Assembly: GCA_026391655.1 (NCBI GenBank)
Contig: JAPLDR010000065.1
Span: 1 to 41,558, forward strand
Origin: Bacteroidia bacterium
GTDB lineage: Bacteria; Bacteroidota; Bacteroidia; Bacteroidales; Prolixibacteraceae
Length of the DNA stretch: 41,558 nucleotides
Direction: 5' to 3'
The number at the start of each line of letters is the position of its first letter. The stretch's first letter is position 1. The notes beneath the pieces are model-generated. The model did not search any database and had not been told where the DNA came from. It saw only the letters and a list, made by a program, of their open reading frames with translations. Positions 1 through 41,558 of this stretch are shown here, in pieces. A program made the translations under genes and the position numbers.

Positions 1-71
1 CGCCGTTAATCTAAGAGGAAACAGGCTCTGGTGGAGACCAACCTGCGAGCAATAAGATTAATGCATTTACA

Positions 72-113
72 GTAATATAAGGGCAGTCGGTTTGGCTGCC
101 TTTTTTATATTAC
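72..113. terminator. Long hairpin at the left edge of the IS
   Basis: GTAATATAA (72-80) pairs with TTATATTAC (105-113), and GGCAG pairs with CTGCC (96-100), which is followed by TTTTTT. The inner stem plus T-run looks like a rho-independent terminator read on the + strand; the outer stem makes it nearly symmetrical, so it could also end the transposase transcript on the minus strand. Positions 1-71 hold no gene I recognise. Confidence 0.55.
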
Positions 114-138
114 TGGAATGCCAGATGGCTAAAAAAAC

Positions 139-1114
139 TCATTTTTCATTTGTAAAATAGATATACCATTTAATGAAGTTGATTCGATGTTTTACCGTTA
201 GACCCCGGTGGATATCCAGGTGATTTTTCAGATGACTAAAGTAACCCTCTATTCCATTTGTTGTTTTTGGGATGGCTGAGTTTGACAGATAATGAAACAT
301 GTTTGGTAATGCTCGTTTAATGGTTATATAAGAACGTCTGAGCAGTTTGTGGGTGTACCAATATCTACCGGTTTCTTCATTATAAGTTCGTTCATTTAAG
401 TAATATTTATGAGATTCATGCCATCTGAGAAACTCTCGTATCCAGTAAATCCGATCATTTTCAGTATTAATTCGAAGGATCAGCAAAACCAGTTTGCGTA
501 ATTCCTGTCCTGCTATGTGTGTGGGATACCGGGTCAGCCACAGCAGGCACATGCGTTGAATATGAACCAGACAACGCTGTACAATGGCATCAGGAACTGA
601 CTTCTTAATTGCTTTTAGAGTACTCTTATGGCCATCGGTAGTGATACTTTCGATCTGTATTCCAAGCTTCACCAAATTAGCAAGATCTTCCCTGATTTCT
701 TCATAATGCTCTCCATCTGTAAAGCGTAGTAACTGAGTATAGCCATCGGAATCGTCCTGATAACAAATCAGGCAAAACTTGGCAAAATAAGTTGCATCTA
801 CTCGAAAATGAACATGATCACGCTTAATTATTTTGATCCGCGGAGCCTTCTCCAATAGTTTGTAGAATGTCCGCTGAAGTGTGTCGCGACATAAACCGCT
901 ATCTCTGGTCAAGGTTTGATAAGTCTGTCGCTCTATTACCCATTTGCGAAACCACACGAACCTGTTTTGAACCCGCTGTTCAGGTCGGTTATCTGTCTGA
1001 AAAATGCCACATCTTTTGCACTTAAATCGTTGTTTCCCGCTTTGTTTTCCCCATCTAATTACATCGGTATAACCACATGCCCAACAACGTTTTTTTTGAT
1101 TTTTTCATAAACAT
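139..1114 (-). CDS. IS256-like transposase with N-terminal zinc ribbon, frameshifted at an A8 run
   Basis: DDE/MULE-type transposase that would cut and rejoin the ends of its insertion sequence. The uninterrupted frame is 139-957 (272 codons from GTG). It shows DATY, TTDGHKS and NGIEGYFSHLK as candidate D, D, E catalytic residues, and the C-x2-H of RCLVHIQRM typical of the IS256/Mutator group. Reading the same frame upstream of 957 gives a clear zinc ribbon, KRCWACGY then CKRCGIF, with no in-frame standard start. The only suitable ATGs (1112-1114 and 1106-1108) lie in another frame and join it only if the run of eight A (plus-strand T 1090-1097) is read as seven, which gives MKKSKKRCWACGY. 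The family resembles the one NCBI names IS256 family transposase, variant Zn-binding type (from memory). The copy is either inactivated, expressed by slippage, or carries a homopolymer sequencing error. Terminal inverted repeats were not identified. Confidence 0.85.
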
Positions 1115-1147
1115 AAAAAGTTTGATGAAACTAAGTTCATCAAACTT
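1113..1147 (-). terminator. Hairpin plus T-run just upstream of the transposase start
   Basis: AAGTTTGATGAA (1118-1129) and TTCATCAAACTT (1136-1147) form a perfect 12-bp stem with a 6-nt loop. Read on the minus strand it is followed by a T-run ending at the transposase ATG. It would stop transcription entering the transposase from outside, as hairpins do in several IS families. The role is inferred from position. Confidence 0.55.
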
Positions 1148-1191
1148 ACTATATCTCCAAATAAAACAAGGATTTAAGAGCTTTTTACCAA

Positions 1192-1461
1192 CTATTTTTC
1201 AGTAATATGCCTTAACAATAACCTCATTAAAGTATATCCAATACGTTTGTTGCCATCAATAAATGGATGATTAATCAAAATACTCTCAATTAATGCGGCT
1301 GCTTTTTCGAGGGGAGAAGAATATAAGTCCTTTTGGTCAAATGTCTGATAAGGTCTTGATAATGCAGATTCCAACAATGTCAAATCGCGAATACCTTGAC
1401 AGCCGCCAAATTTGTCAATCAATATTTCATGAACTCGTATGACATCTTGTACCTCAATCAT
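1192..1461 (-). CDS. doc: Doc/Fic-family toxin, probably C-terminally truncated
   Basis: Death-on-curing (Doc) toxins are Fic-fold enzymes that phosphorylate EF-Tu and stop translation; they are neutralised by an antitoxin encoded just upstream. The Fic motif is present as HPFIDGNKR near residues 65-73, and the N-terminal IHEILIDKFGG-like and LESALSRP segments are typical of Doc proteins. The start overlaps the antitoxin stop by ATGA, so translation is coupled. The protein ends after MRLLLRHITEK at 89 residues, whereas Doc proteins are usually about 120-130. The last helices are therefore missing, and the IS begins only about 45 bp further on. The catalytic motif is intact, so whether toxicity remains is open. 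Confidence 0.85.
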   Translation of the reverse strand: MIEVQDVIRVHEILIDKFGGCQGIRDLTLLESALSRPYQTFDQKDLYSSPLEKAAALIESILINHPFIDGNKRIGYTLMRLLLRHITEK

Positions 1462-3224: not shown

Positions 3225-4217
3225 ATGCCAAATTTATCAACAACATATATGGGGCTGAGCCTCAGAAATCCTTTGGTCGTAGCCAGTTCAGGACTGACAG
3301 GTTCGATCGACAAAATAGCTCAACTTGAAGAAAAAGGGGTCGGTGCGATTGTTTTAAAATCGCTTTTCGAAGAACAGATTAACGGTGAGGTGAGTTACAT
3401 GATTAATCGTGATGCGCAGCAAAATGCTTCTCCCGAAGCTGATGATTATATTTCGGACTATATCCGCGAAAACAATGTACAGCAATATCTTGATTTAGTC
3501 AGATTAGCGAAATCACTGGTTAAGATTCCCATCATAGCCAGTATCAGTTGCATATCGGACAACGGATGGATGGAGTTTGCACACGATCTTGAAAAAGCAG
3601 GTGCCGATGCACTTGAAATCAACGCATTTATTGTACCGACTGATCGTAAAATCTCCTCTGCCGATATCGAATTCCGATACCTGGATATTCTGACAGAAGT
3701 CCGCCGGGTAGTGAAAATTCCTGTTGCCATGAAAATCGGGTATAATTTTACGAATCTTGTGGGGATGGTCGATAAATTGTCGGCCAATGGTGCCGCAGCC
3801 GTGGTGATGTTTAACCGGTTTTATGAACCCGATATCGATCTTGAAACGCTTGAGATGACAGCGGCATCCATTTATAGTTCTTCTGCTGATCTTCGCCAGT
3901 CACTTCGCTGGACCGGAATTGTATCAGGAAAAGTACCTAAAATTAATATTGCCGCTTCAACGGGGATACACGACGGAGAAGCGCTTGTTAAGCAATTACT
4001 TGCCGGGGCTACTGTGGGTCAGGTCTGTTCAACGCTCTATTTGAATGGTTTTGACCAGACCGATCAGATACTTGCTTACCTGAAATCATTTATGGTGAAG
4101 TGGAATTTTAAGCAGATCGCCGATTTCCGGGGAAGACTCAGCTATTCAAAACTTCCAAATCCGGTAATGTACGAACGGGCACAGTTTATGAAATACTTTT
4201 CAGGGCAAGGCAATTGA
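3225..4217 (+). CDS. Dihydroorotate dehydrogenase-like flavoprotein
   Basis: A 330-residue TIM-barrel protein of the class I dihydroorotate dehydrogenase superfamily, starting LSTTYMGLSLRNPLVVASSGLTG, followed by an FMN-barrel pattern (VGAIVLKSLFEEQI, IPIIASISC, GADALEINAF, KIPVAMKIGYN, IAASTGIHDGEALVKQLLAGA). It matches the group annotated in Bacteroidota as dihydroorotate dehydrogenase-like protein, which is distinct from the PyrD of pyrimidine synthesis, so the true substrate is uncertain. Its stop codon overlaps the TTG start of the first giant lectin/PKD gene (TTGA), so the two are probably translationally coupled although they have nothing obvious in common. Confidence 0.85.
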   Translation: MPNLSTTYMGLSLRNPLVVASSGLTGSIDKIAQLEEKGVGAIVLKSLFEEQINGEVSYMINRDAQQNASPEADDYISDYIRENNVQQYLDLVRLAKSLVKIPIIASISCISDNGWMEFAHDLEKAGADALEINAFIVPTDRKISSADIEFRYLDILTEVRRVVKIPVAMKIGYNFTNLVGMVDKLSANGAAAVVMFNRFYEPDIDLETLEMTAASIYSSSADLRQSLRWTGIVSGKVPKINIAASTGIHDGEALVKQLLAGATVGQVCSTLYLNGFDQTDQILAYLKSFMVKWNFKQIADFRGRLSYSKLPNPVMYERAQFMKYFSGQGN

Positions 4218-7200
4218 GAATCCTGATCTTCATATTGCTGATTTTTACCCTTTTCATGGAAATTGCGAAAGGGGATGGCACCACTTTGGACATAAAACTG
4301 ATTAATCCTGTTCCGGTCCAATATTGCACTGGTGAGAAGCGTGTTGCAGAATCTCTGATTATCGAAGGTAATCCCAATATTGTGGGGATGAAAATCTCTT
4401 TTAGCGGGGGATATATAGCGAGCGAGGACGAATTGGTTTACACTGGCAGCCTTCAAAAAAGTTGGTCTGCTGCGTCTGGTACCTTATTATTAACCGGAAT
4501 TTCCACGACAACTGTTCAGGAATATGTCGACGCCATTAAAACCGTCACCTACAAAAACAATAAAGCTATTCCGACTTTAGGTGTCCGAAAGATCACGATA
4601 TCATTGAGTGATATAGATTATTTGCCTGAAACCCAGCATTTTTACCGCTTTATCAGTAAGCCTGGCATTAAGTGGACCGATGCAAAGGCTGAAGCAGAAT
4701 CTGATGCCATGATGTATTATGGTTTAAGGGGTTACCTTGCAACCATTACGAGTCAGGTTGAAAATGATTTTATCCGAACTAAAACCAAAGGTGTCGGCTG
4801 GATAGGGGCATCGGATGCTGCAGTTGAAGGTGATTGGCGCTGGGTGACTGGTCCCGAAGGTTTGAATGGCGGTCTGCTGTTTTGGAGAGGAACCGGTTAT
4901 CAGGCAAAAACGAACCCGGCTGTATATGGTCCGGTAAATGGCGCTTATCACAATTGGAACCGGTGGGACACACCCTATTCTTCATCACTTGCGACTGGTA
5001 CCTGGGAGCCTAATCAATCAGGAGTGGAAAATTATGCGCATATCACTTATTTTCCGGGTAATGCCAACGATTCTTTTAAATGGAACGATCTTCCAAATGG
5101 TGGTAGTAATGGCGATTACGTTCCGGCAGGTTATTTAATAGAATTTGGCGGAAGCCAGGGTGATCCTCCTGTAAATCTTATGGCCACCCTTGATCTGCAG
5201 GTGAATACTGTGCTTTTCAAAACAGGAACTATCCCGGTAATTTGTGAGGGAACAAGTGTTACACTGAATCAGGCTGATACAACGAAAGCAACTTATAGCT
5301 GGACTCCAACAGAATCACTTTCTTCCCCGATAGTGGCTAATCCCGTGGCAAGTCCCAAAATTCCAACGAAGTATTTTGTTACAGGAACACGGGGGATTTG
5401 TATCGATACAGCGACTTTTACTGTTCCCGTAAATCCAAAACCCGTTTCCTTATTAAAACCGGAAGAAAATATTTGTGCGGGTAGTAATAAAATACTCGAT
5501 CCGGGTGTTCATCAAAGTTATAACTGGGGCAATAATGTAACAACCCAAACAATCACGGTTAATACTGCCGGCGATTACACTGTTACTTTGACTTCAGACA
5601 AAAATTGTACGGCAACATCCACTTCAAAGGTTGTGGTTCATGAATATCCGACTATAGATCTCTCAAAACTTCAGCCACTTATCTGCGGTGAGCCCAAATC
5701 GACCACGGTTAAAATTACGACAACGGGAACTGATTATTTGCTGACAAGTGCTGATGGTAAAGCAAATGTGAGTGGTGGACTGAATGTTGACGTTTCCACT
5801 TTCGGAATTTATCCGATGATTTATAAATCATCGTTTTATCCTTCCTGTTCTGTTGAAAAGCTATTCGATCTTTCTTTTTACAAAAAGCCAATAGTTAATT
5901 TTTCGATTGACTCAACAGCGTGTTATCATTATAATTTGGATGCCAAATATATAGGAGATGCTGATACGATTAAGGCAAGATTTACCTGGGTATTTGGAGG
6001 AGATACCATTGTTGATGGCATCGGACGGATAAAAGAAAGAATTCCACTTGGTGTGAATCAATCGAAACGTGATCTGGTGCTTATCGTTGAGCAAAACGGG
6101 TGCTCTGACAAACATACCTTACCCGATATCCGCGTTATTCCGACACTGAGTATCTTTGTCAAAGATACATTGCGTTGTCAACCTGATGCTTTCGAATTCT
6201 TGGCTGCAAATACTGAAACAGGCGTCACCTACGATTGGGATTTTGGCGATGGCATAACAGGAAAAGGAATTAAAGCTCTGCATACCTTTGCAAAATCGGG
6301 AAAATACGATATCCAGCTGACTGTAACTACGGACAAAAAGTGCTCTAATACAGCATTGATCAAAGATATGGTTTTTGCTGCGCCAATACCGGATGTCGCT
6401 TTTTCTCTTTCCCCCATTGACTGTCTGGAACCGGGAGCCAACGAAATGTCATACACAGGTCTTATCGGAACTGACAAGGACACCTATAATTGGAATCTGA
6501 ATAGTTTTGATCTGACGGAAATCATTACGAATCCTCTTCAGACAAAAGGGCCATTAAAATTTGATCTGAAAAACAAACCCTCTGTAACGCTTTCGTTAAA
6601 GGTGATGTCTGAATATGGATGTCCAAGTGCCCTTACAAGTATAACTTTAAAGCGTAAACCTGACTTTTCAATTGCTTCTGATCTGACTGCAGGGTGTATC
6701 CCTTTTTCGCCTTTATTAACCGGAATAATCAACGACAAAGTTGACAGGATTAATTTTACCTGGGATTTTGGCGATGGAACGATCGTTGCCGGATCGCCGA
6801 TGTCACACATTTACAATGTGCCCGATAAAAAATATAACATTACATTATCAGGAACATCTTTGGTGACAGGCTGTTCGAATAAGGTGACTATTCCCGACTT
6901 TTTGCAAACTTATCCAAAGCCAAAAGCAGCGTTTAGTATGGATAATACAGTGGTTTACAACGATAAACCCGATGTTAAGTTTACAAACCTCAGCGAAGGC
7001 GCTACTGCGTTTAACTGGGATTTTGGTGATGGGACTACATCGCCGGAGCCACGCCCGCTACACCATTTTGTGAAGACAGGTCATCTGATCGTATTGCTTG
7101 AAGTCACCAACGCTGACTTTTGCACCGACACTGTTTCTCAAAAACTGCTGGTTGCTTTCGACCGGCTGTTTCCTCCTACCGGCTTTTCGCCAAATGCACC

Positions 7201-36791: not shown

Positions 36792-38105
36792 ATGCTTTTA
36801 ATGGAACAGGTTCGAATTGTCAGACGGGGATTTTTTTTGTTAATATTCCTTTTACTTTCTGTGGAATTTGTTGCCGGACAATCTCTTGTATCAACTTCAG
36901 CCTCTTTTTCCGAGAAAACCTCCTATCCTGTTTTCACCGGAAATGATTTTATTTATTATTTCTGCGGGACAAACGGACAACTGAGTGGCTCTTTGAAGGC
37001 ATCTTCCTCAGGTTCTCAGGTCACATTTACCTGGGAAAAGTATAATCCGGTTACAGGATCTTTCAGCTTTTTTTCGAACGAAACGGGTACGTCTTCTGTT
37101 TTGACCGGACTTGACAACGGTTGTTACAGGGTCAGTTTCAGGGAGAATGGAGTTGATCGTCTTTTCAGAGCCTGGATCATGAATGGATGGGTGGTACCCA
37201 CCTCTGTCATTTCCGAATCAAATTGTCAGTATTTTAAACTTCAGGGTGGAGTAACCGGCTCAAATTATGTGTATTACGATTTATCGTCGCGTCAAGTTGT
37301 TACACTCGATCCCGGGTATAAATACATCTGGTACACCGATAATATTCCGGGTATGACAATTCCGAATCCAATTATTTATGGCCCTCCAACCAAAAATAGT
37401 GTTTGCCGTTTAGAGGTGACTGATCGTGCCGGTTGTATGCAAAGCAGTCAGGTAAACTATGTATCAATTGTAACGAAAGCAAAGTTCTCGTGGAAACCGG
37501 ATCAGGTTTTGAACCCGCAGTTTACTACTCCCGAAGCTCCATTGGAAGTCAAATTCACCAACGAATCAGAGAATGGAGATCCCGATAAATTCGAGTGGTT
37601 TCTTTTCAAGGAAAAATCGAAAATTGAACAAGAAGGATCGGCCGGAGGAAAGGTTGATTCCATCATGGAACGAATTTACGAGGTAAATCCGGTTTATACA
37701 TACGAGAACTCAGGAAGTTATAAAGTGAAACTCATATCTGCCAAACAAAGTGCGGGATATACCTGTCGCGATACATTTTATCTCAAGGATTACATCGTTA
37801 TCGATACATCACTGGTGAAGGTTCCCCCGGCTTTTACTCCGAATGGCGATGGTGTAAATGATGTATTAACCATTCAGACCCGTTCGCTTGAATCGCTTGA
37901 TATTCAGATATTAAACAGGTGGGGACGTATTGTTCATAAATTTAGTAAGACGGGTTATATTCCCGCTGATTCAGAACTTGCAGCATGGGACGGTAAAGTG
38001 AATGGCAAATTAGCCACACCGGGAGTCTATTTTTATATAGTTGATGCGCAAGGACGTGACGGGGAACGAAGGCGAAAAAAGGGGTTTATTCAGTTGATTT
38101 GGTGA
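36792..38105 (+). CDS. Secreted protein with T9SS type B sorting domain
   Basis: A 437-residue exported protein. The signal segment GFFLLIFLLLSVEFVAGQ is preceded by a short basic stretch; translation starts at ATG 36792 or 36801. The middle has two Ig/PKD-like parts (FTWEKYNPVTGSFSFF; KFEWFLFKEKSK with VYTYENSGSYKVKLI). The last 90 residues are a complete gliding-motility-associated type B domain: PPAFTPNGDGVNDVLTI, LDIQILNRWGRIV, AAWDGKVNGKLATPGVYFYIV, GFIQLIW. It is not closely similar to the giant proteins. The ligand is unknown; it is probably a surface or gliding-associated protein. Confidence 0.85.
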   Translation: MLLMEQVRIVRRGFFLLIFLLLSVEFVAGQSLVSTSASFSEKTSYPVFTGNDFIYYFCGTNGQLSGSLKASSSGSQVTFTWEKYNPVTGSFSFFSNETGTSSVLTGLDNGCYRVSFRENGVDRLFRAWIMNGWVVPTSVISESNCQYFKLQGGVTGSNYVYYDLSSRQVVTLDPGYKYIWYTDNIPGMTIPNPIIYGPPTKNSVCRLEVTDRAGCMQSSQVNYVSIVTKAKFSWKPDQVLNPQFTTPEAPLEVKFTNESENGDPDKFEWFLFKEKSKIEQEGSAGGKVDSIMERIYEVNPVYTYENSGSYKVKLISAKQSAGYTCRDTFYLKDYIVIDTSLVKVPPAFTPNGDGVNDVLTIQTRSLESLDIQILNRWGRIVHKFSKTGYIPADSELAAWDGKVNGKLATPGVYFYIVDAQGRDGERRRKKGFIQLIW

Positions 38106-38557: not shown

Positions 38558-38700
38558 AAATATCCTCGGTGTTTTTGCTTTACTGTAAAGGTAAGCAACA
38601 AATAAAAACTTCACCAGAAAATCATTTTAAAATATTTTAGTACTTCAAACTAATCATTACCTTTACATTAAAATTAAATACTACAAATAGGTGGCATTTT

Positions 38701-39135
38701 ATGATTCTAAGTAAAACAACTGAATATGCCCTTTCGATTCTCAGTTATATGGCCACGCGAACTGACGAGGTTTACTCTGCAGAATACCTTTTCAATGAGC
38801 TGAAAATACCTCGCAGTTATCTGCGTCGGCTATTGACCGGTTTATCTAAATTTGGGTTTATCAAAAGCAGCTTAGGGCGTAAGGGTGGATTTGTTTTTGC
38901 AAAAGATATTAAGGAGATTAGTTTCTATCAGATTATCAATACGATGGAAGGTGCTGATGCAATGAATACCTGCCTTCTTGGATTTAGTTGTTGTATAGTT
39001 GACCATCCTTGCGTAATGCATGATATTTGGATGGAAGCCCGCTCGAAAATGATAAATACACTTTCAAACACAACACTTGCTGATTTAAAAGAAAAGTATC
39101 AGCAGGATTTATTGAAGAATCTTCGGTCAATTTAA
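38701..39135 (+). CDS. Rrf2-family regulator, NsrR-like, with Fe-S cysteines
   Basis: A 144-residue winged-helix repressor of the Rrf2 family (SKTTEYALSILSYMA, IPRSYLRRLLTGLSKFGFIKSSLGRKGGF). The segment after the recognition and wing parts has Cys 91, 97, 98 and 104 (NTCLLGFSCCIVDHPCVMHDIW). That spacing is close to the three-cysteine iron-sulfur site of NsrR, which senses nitric oxide, so it is probably a NO- or redox-sensing repressor. The specificity is inferred. It is 38 bp upstream of the oxidase subunit genes and is likely to control them; a possible promoter box TACCTTTA lies at 38658-38665. Confidence 0.88.
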   Translation: MILSKTTEYALSILSYMATRTDEVYSAEYLFNELKIPRSYLRRLLTGLSKFGFIKSSLGRKGGFVFAKDIKEISFYQIINTMEGADAMNTCLLGFSCCIVDHPCVMHDIWMEARSKMINTLSNTTLADLKEKYQQDLLKNLRSI

Positions 39136-39173: not shown

Positions 39174-39743
39174 ATGGTTGACTCTGCTGTTGTTTTAAAT
39201 GGCCAGACGCTGGCCTACACATTCTATTGTTTAGCGATTATTTCGCTCGTAGGATGGTTCGGTTATAAAATTACCAGAAAAGGAAAGGACCGTCTTGTAA
39301 AAAACGGACTTTTCTATGCTTTTGTCACAATGTTGGTTATACTCGGAGTATCGCTTCACATCGTGACCTACAATACGATACCCTGGGCTTCAATGGACCT
39401 GAACCGTGCAGAAATAAAGCCGGATAAGGTATTCAACATTACTGTTGAAAAGCATCATTTTGTTTTACCTGCGGAAAAAATGGTTATGCGATGCCATGAG
39501 AAAGTACTTTTTCTGGTTACTTCCAACGACCTTACTTATGGATTTGGCCTGTTCAGGCAGGACAATTCGATGGTTTTCCAAATGCAGGTTGTTCCGGGAC
39601 ATAAAAACGATATTCTTTGGGAGTTTGACAGGGAAGGCGTTTATTCTATCCGATCAACAGAGTATTCCGGACCCAAGGGGGTTGACATGATCGAAAAGGG
39701 AGCTGTCGTCGTCACCTGTGAAAAAACGGCGTCCATTAATTAG
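39174..39743 (+). CDS. Cytochrome oxidase subunit II-like protein lacking CuA ligands
   Basis: A 189-residue membrane protein with two N-terminal transmembrane helices (about 13-31 and 45-65) and a periplasmic cupredoxin-like domain, the shape of oxidase subunit II. The CuA site is gone: Tyr122 stands in the usual His place (TSNDLTYGFGL), and the C-x3-C-x3-H-x2-M-like loop reads STEYSGPKGVDM, with Ser161, Ser165 and Val in place of both Cys and the His; the Met remains. It should therefore not take electrons from cytochrome c through CuA; direct quinol use, as in quinol oxidases, is the natural alternative. It is between the regulator and subunit I genes, 30 bp before the latter. Confidence 0.82.
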   Translation: MVDSAVVLNGQTLAYTFYCLAIISLVGWFGYKITRKGKDRLVKNGLFYAFVTMLVILGVSLHIVTYNTIPWASMDLNRAEIKPDKVFNITVEKHHFVLPAEKMVMRCHEKVLFLVTSNDLTYGFGLFRQDNSMVFQMQVVPGHKNDILWEFDREGVYSIRSTEYSGPKGVDMIEKGAVVVTCEKTASIN

Positions 39744-39773: not shown

Positions 39774-41393
39774 ATGAACTTTCTACAAACTTTTATGAGC
39801 GGTGAAGGGGGATTATTCAAACCAAATAGTTTGACCCCCATGCAGAAACTAACCCTCCGTTTTGTTGTTGTCGGACTGTTTTATTATGCCTTTGCAGTGA
39901 TCGAAGGGATGATTATGCGGATTTACGAAATTCAGCCGATACCGGCCATTTCGTCTGATCAGTTTTTTGCCATTATGACGGCTCATCCATTGGTGGGTAT
40001 ATTTGGATCAACCTATTCGATTGTATTTGGGGCTTTTCTGTTTCTGGTTCCTTTTTTGATGAACAAGCCACTGTGGAGCATTAAATTGGGAAATTGGACA
40101 ATGTGGCTGATCGCCATTGGTACATTTGTATTCTGGTCATCCGGCTTTATCACTCATTATGCGCCGCTCTATACACTTTACTGGCCTTTACCAGCCGATT
40201 TTAGTCAGTTTAGTCTGATTGGAGGCATCTTCTTTATTACCGGTATTGCTCTCGTAATGGTAGGTACCGTATTCTTTGTGATCAATATTTACAAAACAAT
40301 CGTTTTTACACCTGAGGGCTTTGAGCCGCAACCTAAATGTGCCTTGTTGAAATCGGCCTTGGGAATGACAGCTATGGCCAACCTTTTTCGGAAGAACAAG
40401 AAAGAGCAACTTGTCTCCCTGCCAGTGGCTGCAATCGCTCAAGGCACTGTTGATGTGGCATTTAATTCTGCTATTATCCTTTTTACGGGGGTACTGATTC
40501 TGGTTTATATGGTTGCAGCGCTGCTGGGTTTCGATCTTAAATCCAGTGCAATTGATGCACTCTTATATAAAAACTGGTTCTGGTGGGGTCTCGATCTGAT
40601 CGCCGATGGATTGGTACTGATTTTTGTGGCTGGTACCTGGTATTTATTGGCAACATTGATCACCGGTAAAAAGCTTTATATGGAAAAGGTGGCTCGAATT
40701 GCACTGCTGGTTGAGCTGGTTGTCTCCTGGACAGTATGGTCGCATCACCTGTTATCAGATCAGGCACAACCCGGATTTCTGAAAGTCGTCTCTGGTGAAT
40801 TGGTAACTGCCTTTGAATTAATCACACAGGGTCTGGCTTTCTTTATCACATTAGCCACATTATGGAGTGCCCGCCCTTTGAAGATGACCAATCCGTTGAA
40901 ATTTTTGCTCGGAGGTCTTTTGGGTTTCGGACTCGCAGTGCCAGCCGGGATTATGCAGGCTGATATCGGTTTAAACAGGATTCTTCACAATACGCAGTGG
41001 GTAATTGGACCCCATGTGCATGTAGCCATCCTGGTCGGACTTGCAATGACGCTTTACTCTGCAATCTATTTTTTATTTCCTATTTTGACAAACGGTGCAA
41101 AATTGTACAGTCAAAAACTGGCGAATTTCCATTTCTGGGCACAGCTTTTTGGAGGCATCGGAATGGGAGCATTCATGGGAATGGCCGGATTGCATGGCAT
41201 GTTGCGTCGTTCGCTATATGTAAATGGTGAGTTCAATCTCTATATGATTCTGGCAGCTATTTGCGGCGCTTTTCTTCTTTTTGGATTTTTAGCTTTCTTC
41301 TTCAATATTGTGATGAGCCTCGGACTTAACGGGGTTATTGGAATATTTAAACCATCCAAACTGAAAACTACAGATCTCTTGCCCAAAGCCTGA
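39774..41393 (+). CDS. Heme-copper oxidase/NO-reductase-like subunit I with Asp replacing a distal-metal His
   Basis: A 539-residue inner-membrane protein with about 12 or more transmembrane helices, of the heme-copper oxidase superfamily and closest in pattern to the NorB type. His71 (MTAHPLVGIFG) and His416 fit the low-spin heme, His414 (GPHVHVAIL) the high-spin heme, and His324-His325 (WSHHLLSDQ) two of the three distal-metal ligands. The third ligand segment reads WFWWGLDLIADGLVL: it aligns with the NorB WWVVHLWVEGVWEL, with Asp274 in place of His and Asp278 in place of the Glu. A standard oxygen-reducing site is thus unlikely; NO reduction or another reaction is plausible. It is probably in one operon with subunit II and the NsrR-like regulator. 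Confidence 0.85.
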   Translation: MNFLQTFMSGEGGLFKPNSLTPMQKLTLRFVVVGLFYYAFAVIEGMIMRIYEIQPIPAISSDQFFAIMTAHPLVGIFGSTYSIVFGAFLFLVPFLMNKPLWSIKLGNWTMWLIAIGTFVFWSSGFITHYAPLYTLYWPLPADFSQFSLIGGIFFITGIALVMVGTVFFVINIYKTIVFTPEGFEPQPKCALLKSALGMTAMANLFRKNKKEQLVSLPVAAIAQGTVDVAFNSAIILFTGVLILVYMVAALLGFDLKSSAIDALLYKNWFWWGLDLIADGLVLIFVAGTWYLLATLITGKKLYMEKVARIALLVELVVSWTVWSHHLLSDQAQPGFLKVVSGELVTAFELITQGLAFFITLATLWSARPLKMTNPLKFLLGGLLGFGLAVPAGIMQADIGLNRILHNTQWVIGPHVHVAILVGLAMTLYSAIYFLFPILTNGAKLYSQKLANFHFWAQLFGGIGMGAFMGMAGLHGMLRRSLYVNGEFNLYMILAAICGAFLLFGFLAFFFNIVMSLGLNGVIGIFKPSKLKTTDLLPKA

Positions 41394-41408
41394 TAAAAAA
41401 ATATCAGG
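41389..41408. terminator. Weak hairpin at the end of subunit I
   Basis: CCTGATA (41389-41395) pairs with TATCAGG (41402-41408) around six A; it includes the stop codon. No T-run follows, so it is a poor terminator at best. The group II intron's 3' end is only 13 bp further on. Confidence 0.3.
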
Positions 41409-41420
41409 GAATTATTCATA

Positions 41421-41558
41421 ATCGGATAGGAGAAACGGGATTAATTCCCGTTTCGTCCTTCCACACCACCGTGCGTACCGTTCGGTACACGGCGGTTCCT
41501 TAATTTACGCCATTAACTTTCCGAAAATAATCCGTCAAGAAGATGTATCCTGACTGTT
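41421..41558 (-). mobile_element. Group II intron, 3' end (domains V and VI), cut by the window edge
   Basis: On the minus strand, GAACCGCCGTGTACC-GAAC-GGTACGCACGGTGGTG (plus 41464-41498) has the size and hairpin shape of catalytic domain V. It is followed by a domain VI hairpin (AAACGGG and CCCGTTT arms) and the typical intron end CCTATCCGAT, whose last base is 41421. The A seven bases from the end (41427) is in the usual branch-point position. The 5' part and most of the intron-encoded protein lie beyond the window. The 3' exon is the short gap after the oxidase gene. Confidence 0.8.
41500..41556 (-). CDS. C-terminal end of the intron-encoded protein (partial)
   Basis: Eighteen codons open to the window edge (ending YFRKVNGVN, then TAA), finishing just before domain V, where group II reverse transcriptase/maturase genes end. 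It is too short to recognise by sequence; the call rests on position only. Confidence 0.35.
   Translation of the reverse strand, partial: QSGYIFLTDYFRKVNGVN

Follow-up and report, generated by a model that had tools for sequence, protein, structure and literature searches.

We analysed a stretch of 41,558 nucleotides from a Bacteroidia bacterium, hereafter called the window, in which three genes on the forward strand form a cassette, i.e. a regulator of the Rrf2 family, a cupredoxin-like subunit II and a heme-copper subunit I, with an imperfect dyad in front of the regulator. The features and the codons of the residues discussed below are as follows:

38678..38697, forward strand: 20-bp imperfect dyad ATACTACAAATAGGTGGCAT, located 23 bp upstream of the start of Rrf2, of a pattern enriched upstream of cassettes
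38701..39135, forward strand: Rrf2-family transcriptional regulator, 144 aa, with C91, C98 and C104 (TIGR00738, 111.9 bits, cut-off 73.3)
39174..39743, forward strand: subunit II, a membrane-anchored cupredoxin-like protein without CuA ligands, putatively NorH-like
39774..41393, forward strand: subunit I, the heme-copper catalytic subunit, putatively NorG-like
39984..39986, forward strand: codon of H71, low-spin heme ligand by alignment, in a His column of the reference rows
40593..40595, forward strand: codon of D274, replacing the helix-VI His ligand of the distal metal
40605..40607, forward strand: codon of D278, at the position of the cross-linked Tyr of oxidases and of Glu211 of cNOR
40743..40748, forward strand: codons of H324 and H325, which remain as His ligands of the distal metal
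40815..40817, forward strand: codon of E348, aligning with the conserved Glu that c/qNORs carry in the helix following the HH pair
41013..41021, forward strand: codons of H414 and H416, helix X heme ligands by alignment

Subunit I starts with ATG, comprises 539 amino acids and matches Pfam COX1 with 190.8 bits (cut-off 34.8). Its best NCBIfam match is the cytochrome c oxidase model CtaD, which at 99.1 bits lies far below the cut-off of 670.75; the family library thus holds no fitting model and such genes can pass for oxidases. A phmmer search of PDB sequences returned five matches, all being cbb3-type CcoN subunits (best E 4.6e-7). The AlphaFold2 model calculated from 46 sequences (pTM 0.83, mean pLDDT 79.3) yielded in Foldseek, among the 50 matches listed, cytochrome oxidase chains of the A-type or supercomplexes holding one, with query TM-scores up to 0.77, and no NO reductase is found among the listed sequence and fold matches. 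Residues 324-332 at the HH pair have a pLDDT below 50, so no reliable statement on the metal site, including whether Asp274 faces the heme, can be drawn from the model. All residues named in an earlier note on this DNA (H71, D274, D278, H324, H325, H414 and H416) are present in the translated reading frame; beyond these we identified the invariant E348, the partner subunit and the Rrf2 regulator.

A genome scan resulted in 324 relatives, possibly including other heme-copper proteins; the best 80 of these were analysed. In a set of 81 sequences, consisting of the window, 79 of these 80 loci and L128 from a Chloroflexota-group genome, whose subunit I is with 44% identity the lowest among the aligned relatives, the residues H71, D274, D278, H324, H325, E348, H405, H414 and H416 are invariant (81/81). 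In a second alignment of 46 rows the D274 column contains His in all 36 reference rows outside the window's group (cNOR, qNOR, A-, B- and C-type, Gln-type), confirming the earlier reading of an Asp in place of the helix-VI metal His. The sequence leading to this residue is YKNWFWWGLD in the window versus YRNFFWGFGH in four of the six Gln-type rows, and downstream the window has D-LIADG versus H-LWVEG of NO reductases. Four residues after the helix-VI ligand, A/B oxidases carry Tyr, c/qNOR Glu, Gln-type rows Gln and the window D278, which agrees with the earlier proposal of Asp278 replacing the first Glu of NO reductases, this match being read without the gap that MAFFT places after D274. The third c/qNOR carboxylate position, eight after the helix-VI His, is Leu282 in the window. 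The E348 column contains Glu in 5/5 c/qNOR rows and in 0/31 other reference rows, the A-type row L129 having a Glu two columns before it, so that two carboxylate positions of NO reductases, D278 and E348, are kept. In NmqNOR, FeB is described to be held by His490, His541, His542 and Glu494, with Glu494, Glu498 and Glu563 grouped nearby (PMC7201271). Judged by the spacing rather than by alignment, D278 may stand for Glu494, which likewise comes four after His490, and E348 for Glu563, with Leu282 at the position of Glu498.

We considered two other explanations for the Asp at this position. A different His of helix VI serving as metal ligand, an alternative raised by the earlier note itself, is rejected: the window has no His within residues 255-298, and of the 14 of 81 rows with a His in this stretch the five listed have it at residue 257, preceding the helix. 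A sequencing error is unlikely since the same genome contains a second copy of the cassette with regulator and partner (contig C48, L003:2094-4763), the subunit I of which is 87% identical and has the same residues, and since D274 and D278 are invariant in all 81 sequences.

Subunit II (189 aa) is encoded directly upstream of subunit I, and a cupredoxin-like partner is found at this place in 79/80 loci, the sole locus without it (L095) having only 40 bp of sequence before subunit I. We assign the cupredoxin fold from the alignment with other subunit II rows and from matches to TIGR02866 (CoxB; 27.2 bits, E 2.5e-6) and Pfam COX2 (19.3 bits, E 0.0011), both being below the curated cut-offs. In all 79 subunit II rows, i.e. 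77 loci, L128 and the window, the CuA ligand positions are replaced (H by Y122, C by S161, C by S165), and 78/79 have G169 where the CuA-bearing references L129 and L132 (H, C, C, H) have His; Met172 is kept in 73/79. A third reference, L130 from Nostoc, is also without the two Cys. Loss of CuA is a mark of quinol-fed enzymes such as CyoA, and the enzyme is therefore probably quinol-fed.

For comparison with known families we calculated a maximum-likelihood tree of the 46 rows, which were grouped by annotation and motif, the Gln-type rows being called eNOR by motif only; in L137 and L138, a motif scan for NorB references found none. The window's group, the A-type, C-type, c/qNOR and Gln-type rows each split off at 100/100 and the B-type rows at 99/97. 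The tree program warns that long branches meet among the NOR and C-type rows, and the root was not inferred, so we claim separateness only and no sister group. The position of the window's group apart from all A-, B- and C-type rows speaks against a placement within ordinary oxygen-reducing oxidases, which the earlier note had named as an alternative outcome. These oxygen reductases share the fold, the heme His and the HH pair but are without the Asp pair and without Glu in the E348 column. They carry a cross-linking Tyr, for which two positions are known, and in the window these are occupied by D278 and S318, the latter aligning with the column that we take to be the helix-VII Tyr of the C-type. 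We reject an ordinary oxidase on the basis of the separate tree group and the lack of Tyr at both positions.

The c/qNORs belong to the same superfamily and have in common with the window the Glu in the helix after the HH pair (E348) and an acidic residue four after the helix-VI ligand. In contrast, they have three His at FeB, compared to two His and Asp here, Glu instead of Asp at +4 and a Glu at +8 that is absent here. With D274 for His, D278 for Glu and separate tree groups, the window's subunit I is neither a cNOR nor a qNOR. The lead of helix VI is nearly the same in eNOR in four of six rows (Y-K/R-N-x-F-W); eNOR has no Tyr at the site and is described with a cupredoxin second subunit as well (PMC8756737). 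However, the Gln-type rows keep the helix-VI His, have Gln at +4 and form a separate group, and we reject eNOR on the Asp (81/81) instead of Gln at the active-site Tyr position.

The family gNOR (norGH) was reportedly proposed by Hemp and Gennis in 2008. They are also said, with less certainty, to mention the change of the His ligand to Asp, and we therefore do not claim this change as new. In the excerpts searched of the nitric-oxide literature naming gNOR no statement on it was found, and the words 'ligand' and 'aspartate' are absent from PMC8756737. Table A4 of that paper gives gNOR with Asp at the active-site Tyr position for Sulfurimonas, Sulfurovum and Persephonella, and sNOR, gNOR and eNOR are predicted there with a cupredoxin second subunit (PMC8756737). 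The family is furthermore reported in Methylomirabilis (PMC6094997) and named in PMC11707229. NorGH is described as quinone-oxidising and non-electrogenic in PMC8906906 and predicted to translocate protons in PMC6349771, i.e. these sources disagree on proton translocation by gNOR. PMC11388526 counts cNOR, qNOR, bNOR and eNOR among the characterised families and sNOR, gNOR and nNOR among the proposed ones, so NO reduction is a proposed function for the whole family gNOR.

The cassette of the window fits this description in several features. The Asp at the active-site position occupied elsewhere by Tyr, Glu, Gln or Asn is D278 (81/81), the cupredoxin-fold second subunit is encoded beside subunit I (directly upstream in 79/80 loci), and the missing CuA (79/79 rows) points to the quinone-oxidising type. 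In contrast to the genera of Table A4, the genomes found here are titled or grouped Bacteroidota, Ignavibacteria, Acidobacteriota and Chloroflexota. The match to the gNORs of Sulfurimonas, Persephonella and Methylomirabilis (DAMO_1118-1119) was made by the published description. Together with the separate tree group these features support the suggestion of the earlier note that the gene may belong to one of the little-studied NO reductase families that Hemp, Gennis and colleagues proposed beside cNOR/qNOR, with gNOR being the family indicated. We consider it probable, taking function and type jointly, that the locus encodes a gNOR-type, quinol-fed NO reductase under the control of an NO-responsive Rrf2 repressor. 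A separate, unnamed family of heme-copper NO reductases, in which Asp and the missing CuA would have arisen convergently with gNOR, or else nNOR, is conceivable to the extent that the identification draws on the features given in PMC8756737 and PMC8906906, gNOR being compared by description. We regard it as rather unlikely: Asp at the Tyr position, the cupredoxin-like partner and the CuA loss all agree with the short published description, and the members found in samples of Bacteroidota, Chloroflexota and Acidobacteriota point to a widespread family, which surveys should have come across.

The regulator supports a link of the gNOR-type cassette to NO. Its C91, C98 and C104 probably bind an Fe-S cluster, and its role may be NsrR-like. 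In the cluster of Rrf2 proteins, comprising 53 proteins of 51 loci and the window and with adjacency to the cassette confirmed for a part of them, C91, C98 and H107 are each present in 54/54 and C104 in 53/54 rows. An Rrf2 relative precedes subunit II in at least 52/80 loci, this being a lower bound because some loci are incomplete. The dyad at 38678-38697 is probably the operator of the cassette, as suggested by the recurrence of its pattern. Allowing up to three mismatches, ATGNTACNNNNNNGTANCAT occurs in 39/53 upstream regions (51 loci, the window and the second copy) versus a mean of 5.06 in simple two-base block shuffles, and in 30 of the 39 matching regions it lies at -22 or -23 from the start. 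The pattern was read by eye from 13 regions (12 loci and the window) that are also among the 53, making this count partly circular; in the 40 regions not used for reading it, 28 match at the same threshold. As a control, 2/23 loci without adjacent regulator match. Within the window alone the pattern occurs at chance level (seven hits versus 5.72 expected, two of them being 38678-38697 on either strand). A count of perfect 5-bp dyads in the upstream regions reached at most 5 ahead of the regulator, where shuffles also reached 5, and at most 5 ahead of subunit II, where shuffles reached 4.

The genome of the window (5.0 Mb, 149 contigs, 96% complete) also encodes an A-type oxidase subunit I on contig C35, and the anaerobic or microaerobic host envisaged by the earlier note is not borne out. 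NosZ gave one match of 22.8 bits against a cut-off of 625 and NirK none; the NrfA profile matched with 24.3 versus 24.1 bits a protein which by eye is another multiheme cytochrome. Judged by NosZ and NirK, the simplest reading is NO removal rather than full denitrification, the NO coming from outside or from other pathways.

In the neighbour clusters of the best 80 of the 324 relatives the flanks of the cassette vary between loci, which suggests that the cassette moves between genomic places. Beyond the three genes the commonest recurrent neighbour (12/80 loci) is by eye a look-alike of the tRNA pseudouridine synthase TruA, a housekeeping protein without link to NO. Naming the neighbour kinds by a Pfam scan of one to three proteins each, we found a DUF6448 gene in 8/80 loci, a Crp/Fnr regulator in 5/80, a small membrane protein resembling COX1, DUF2871 and NnrS (all matches below cut-offs) in 5/80 and a hemerythrin gene in 4/80, i.e. 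NO-linked neighbours occur in a minority of loci. As one example, plasmid pHG1 also has hemerythrin, Rrf2 and Crp/Fnr genes around the gene annotated as the large subunit of a qNOR-type NO reductase.

These data also bear on the alternative of a quinol oxidase whose altered active site serves to reduce O2 at low tension. It would account for the oxidase fold and the heme ligands, with the listed Foldseek matches being A-type oxidases and the phmmer matches cbb3-type CcoN, yet we judge it very unlikely given the lack of Tyr at either known cross-link position, the E348 that among the aligned rows is common to c/qNOR only, the A-type oxidase already present in the genome, the Rrf2 regulator and the NO-linked neighbours in some relatives. 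Hardly any credence can be given to an NO or redox sensor or another heme protein without catalysis whose binuclear centre no longer works, as the loss of one metal His and of the subunit II metal site would allow, since H324, H325, D274, D278, E348 and all heme His are kept in 81/81 sequences, as would be expected if the site works rather than decays.

For the gNOR-type NO reductase we propose a model according to which the locus would be an NO-inducible cassette of three genes, encoding the Rrf2 repressor, the CuA-less cupredoxin subunit II and the gNOR (norGH)-type subunit I. The quinol in Bacteroidota is menaquinol. Electrons from the presumed quinol donor would pass to the low-spin heme (H71/H416), from which the high-spin heme (H414) and the distal metal would receive them; there two molecules of NO, the likely substrate, would be joined to N2O without pumping. 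The distal metal would be held by H324, H325 and, as the alignment suggests, Asp274, with Asp278 in the role of Glu211 of cNOR and E348 helping in proton delivery; such a carboxylate-rich site would favour iron over copper. The Rrf2 protein, acting as a putative repressor, would bind the dyad at 38678-38697 and be released when NO damages its Fe-S cluster. The physiological role would be the removal of toxic NO originating from outside or from other pathways.

More tentatively, and with somewhat more doubt than confidence, we suggest the distal metal being a mononuclear iron coordinated by two His and one or two Asp, i.e. a non-heme site resembling a facial triad within the heme-copper fold. 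If so, the coupling of NO would take place at a site rich in carboxylates, in contrast to the three His of the solved c/qNORs, and this site would have been kept across several phyla. As a natural variant, the Asp-for-His site lends itself to the question of which ligands are required for coupling NO. If these proteins are NO reductases, counts of the N2O-producing capacity in genomes of Bacteroidota, Ignavibacteria, Acidobacteriota and Chloroflexota may be too low. A marker set for such genes is given by the Asp pair together with E348, the partner without CuA and the operator.

As for the spread, the search for relatives gave strong matches in 7/61 genomes, the window's own included, and the Bacteroidota sample (E 1e-30) in 12/392, again including the own one and two fragmentary cases. 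The other phyla were sampled with the seed genome included by choice: the phylum of the Acidobacteriota-titled seed has strong matches in 4/396 genomes, that of the Spirochaetes-titled seed in 1/392, which is the seed itself, and in that of the Chloroflexota (Anaerolineae)-titled seed 3/301 passed 1e-20, i.e. the seed, L128 and an A-type oxidase. The seeds are metagenome bins, and misbinning is thus possible for single cases. A tblastn search of plasmids returned 62 records, all below 60% identity and the 40 listed at 23-32%, and a search of viral contigs gave none.

Several observations were made beside the main analysis. In L008 (G021:C98) subunit I is split into two overlapping pieces near residue 447, by a frame break or an assembly error. 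In L128 the Chloroflexota-group subunit I is followed by a 456-aa polytopic membrane protein (1-1368, reverse strand), and a gene which by eye resembles a type II NADH dehydrogenase (3794-4594, reverse strand) precedes the subunit pair. The second copy of the cassette on C48 has different flanks, with a gene that looks TolC-like upstream as in L044, and undefined bases near its 3' end. In the ignavibacterial loci L068, L084, L086 and L088, Crp/Fnr-like and DUF6448-like genes, together with small NnrS-like, ABM-like or hemerythrin genes, lie before the cassette in varying sets, DUF6448 having no known function. On another contig of the window's genome (L038, G000:C103, 343-3427) genes for an Rrf2 protein, a hemerythrin, a 173-aa piece resembling the C-terminus of qNOR and a PepSY-like membrane protein stand by eye side by side; a look-alike of the last belongs to a cluster found in 5/80 gNOR-type loci, of which L056 has it just downstream. 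Upstream of the cassette the window encodes at 36792-38105 a secreted protein whose C-terminal domain is of the type IX secretion kind (CHU_C, 68 bits). The final stretch of the window right after subunit I (41394-41558) had no Rfam match at gathering score; it is similar to the ends of group II introns and is 73-76% identical to the eight plasmid stretches listed, four of which are annotated ltrA.
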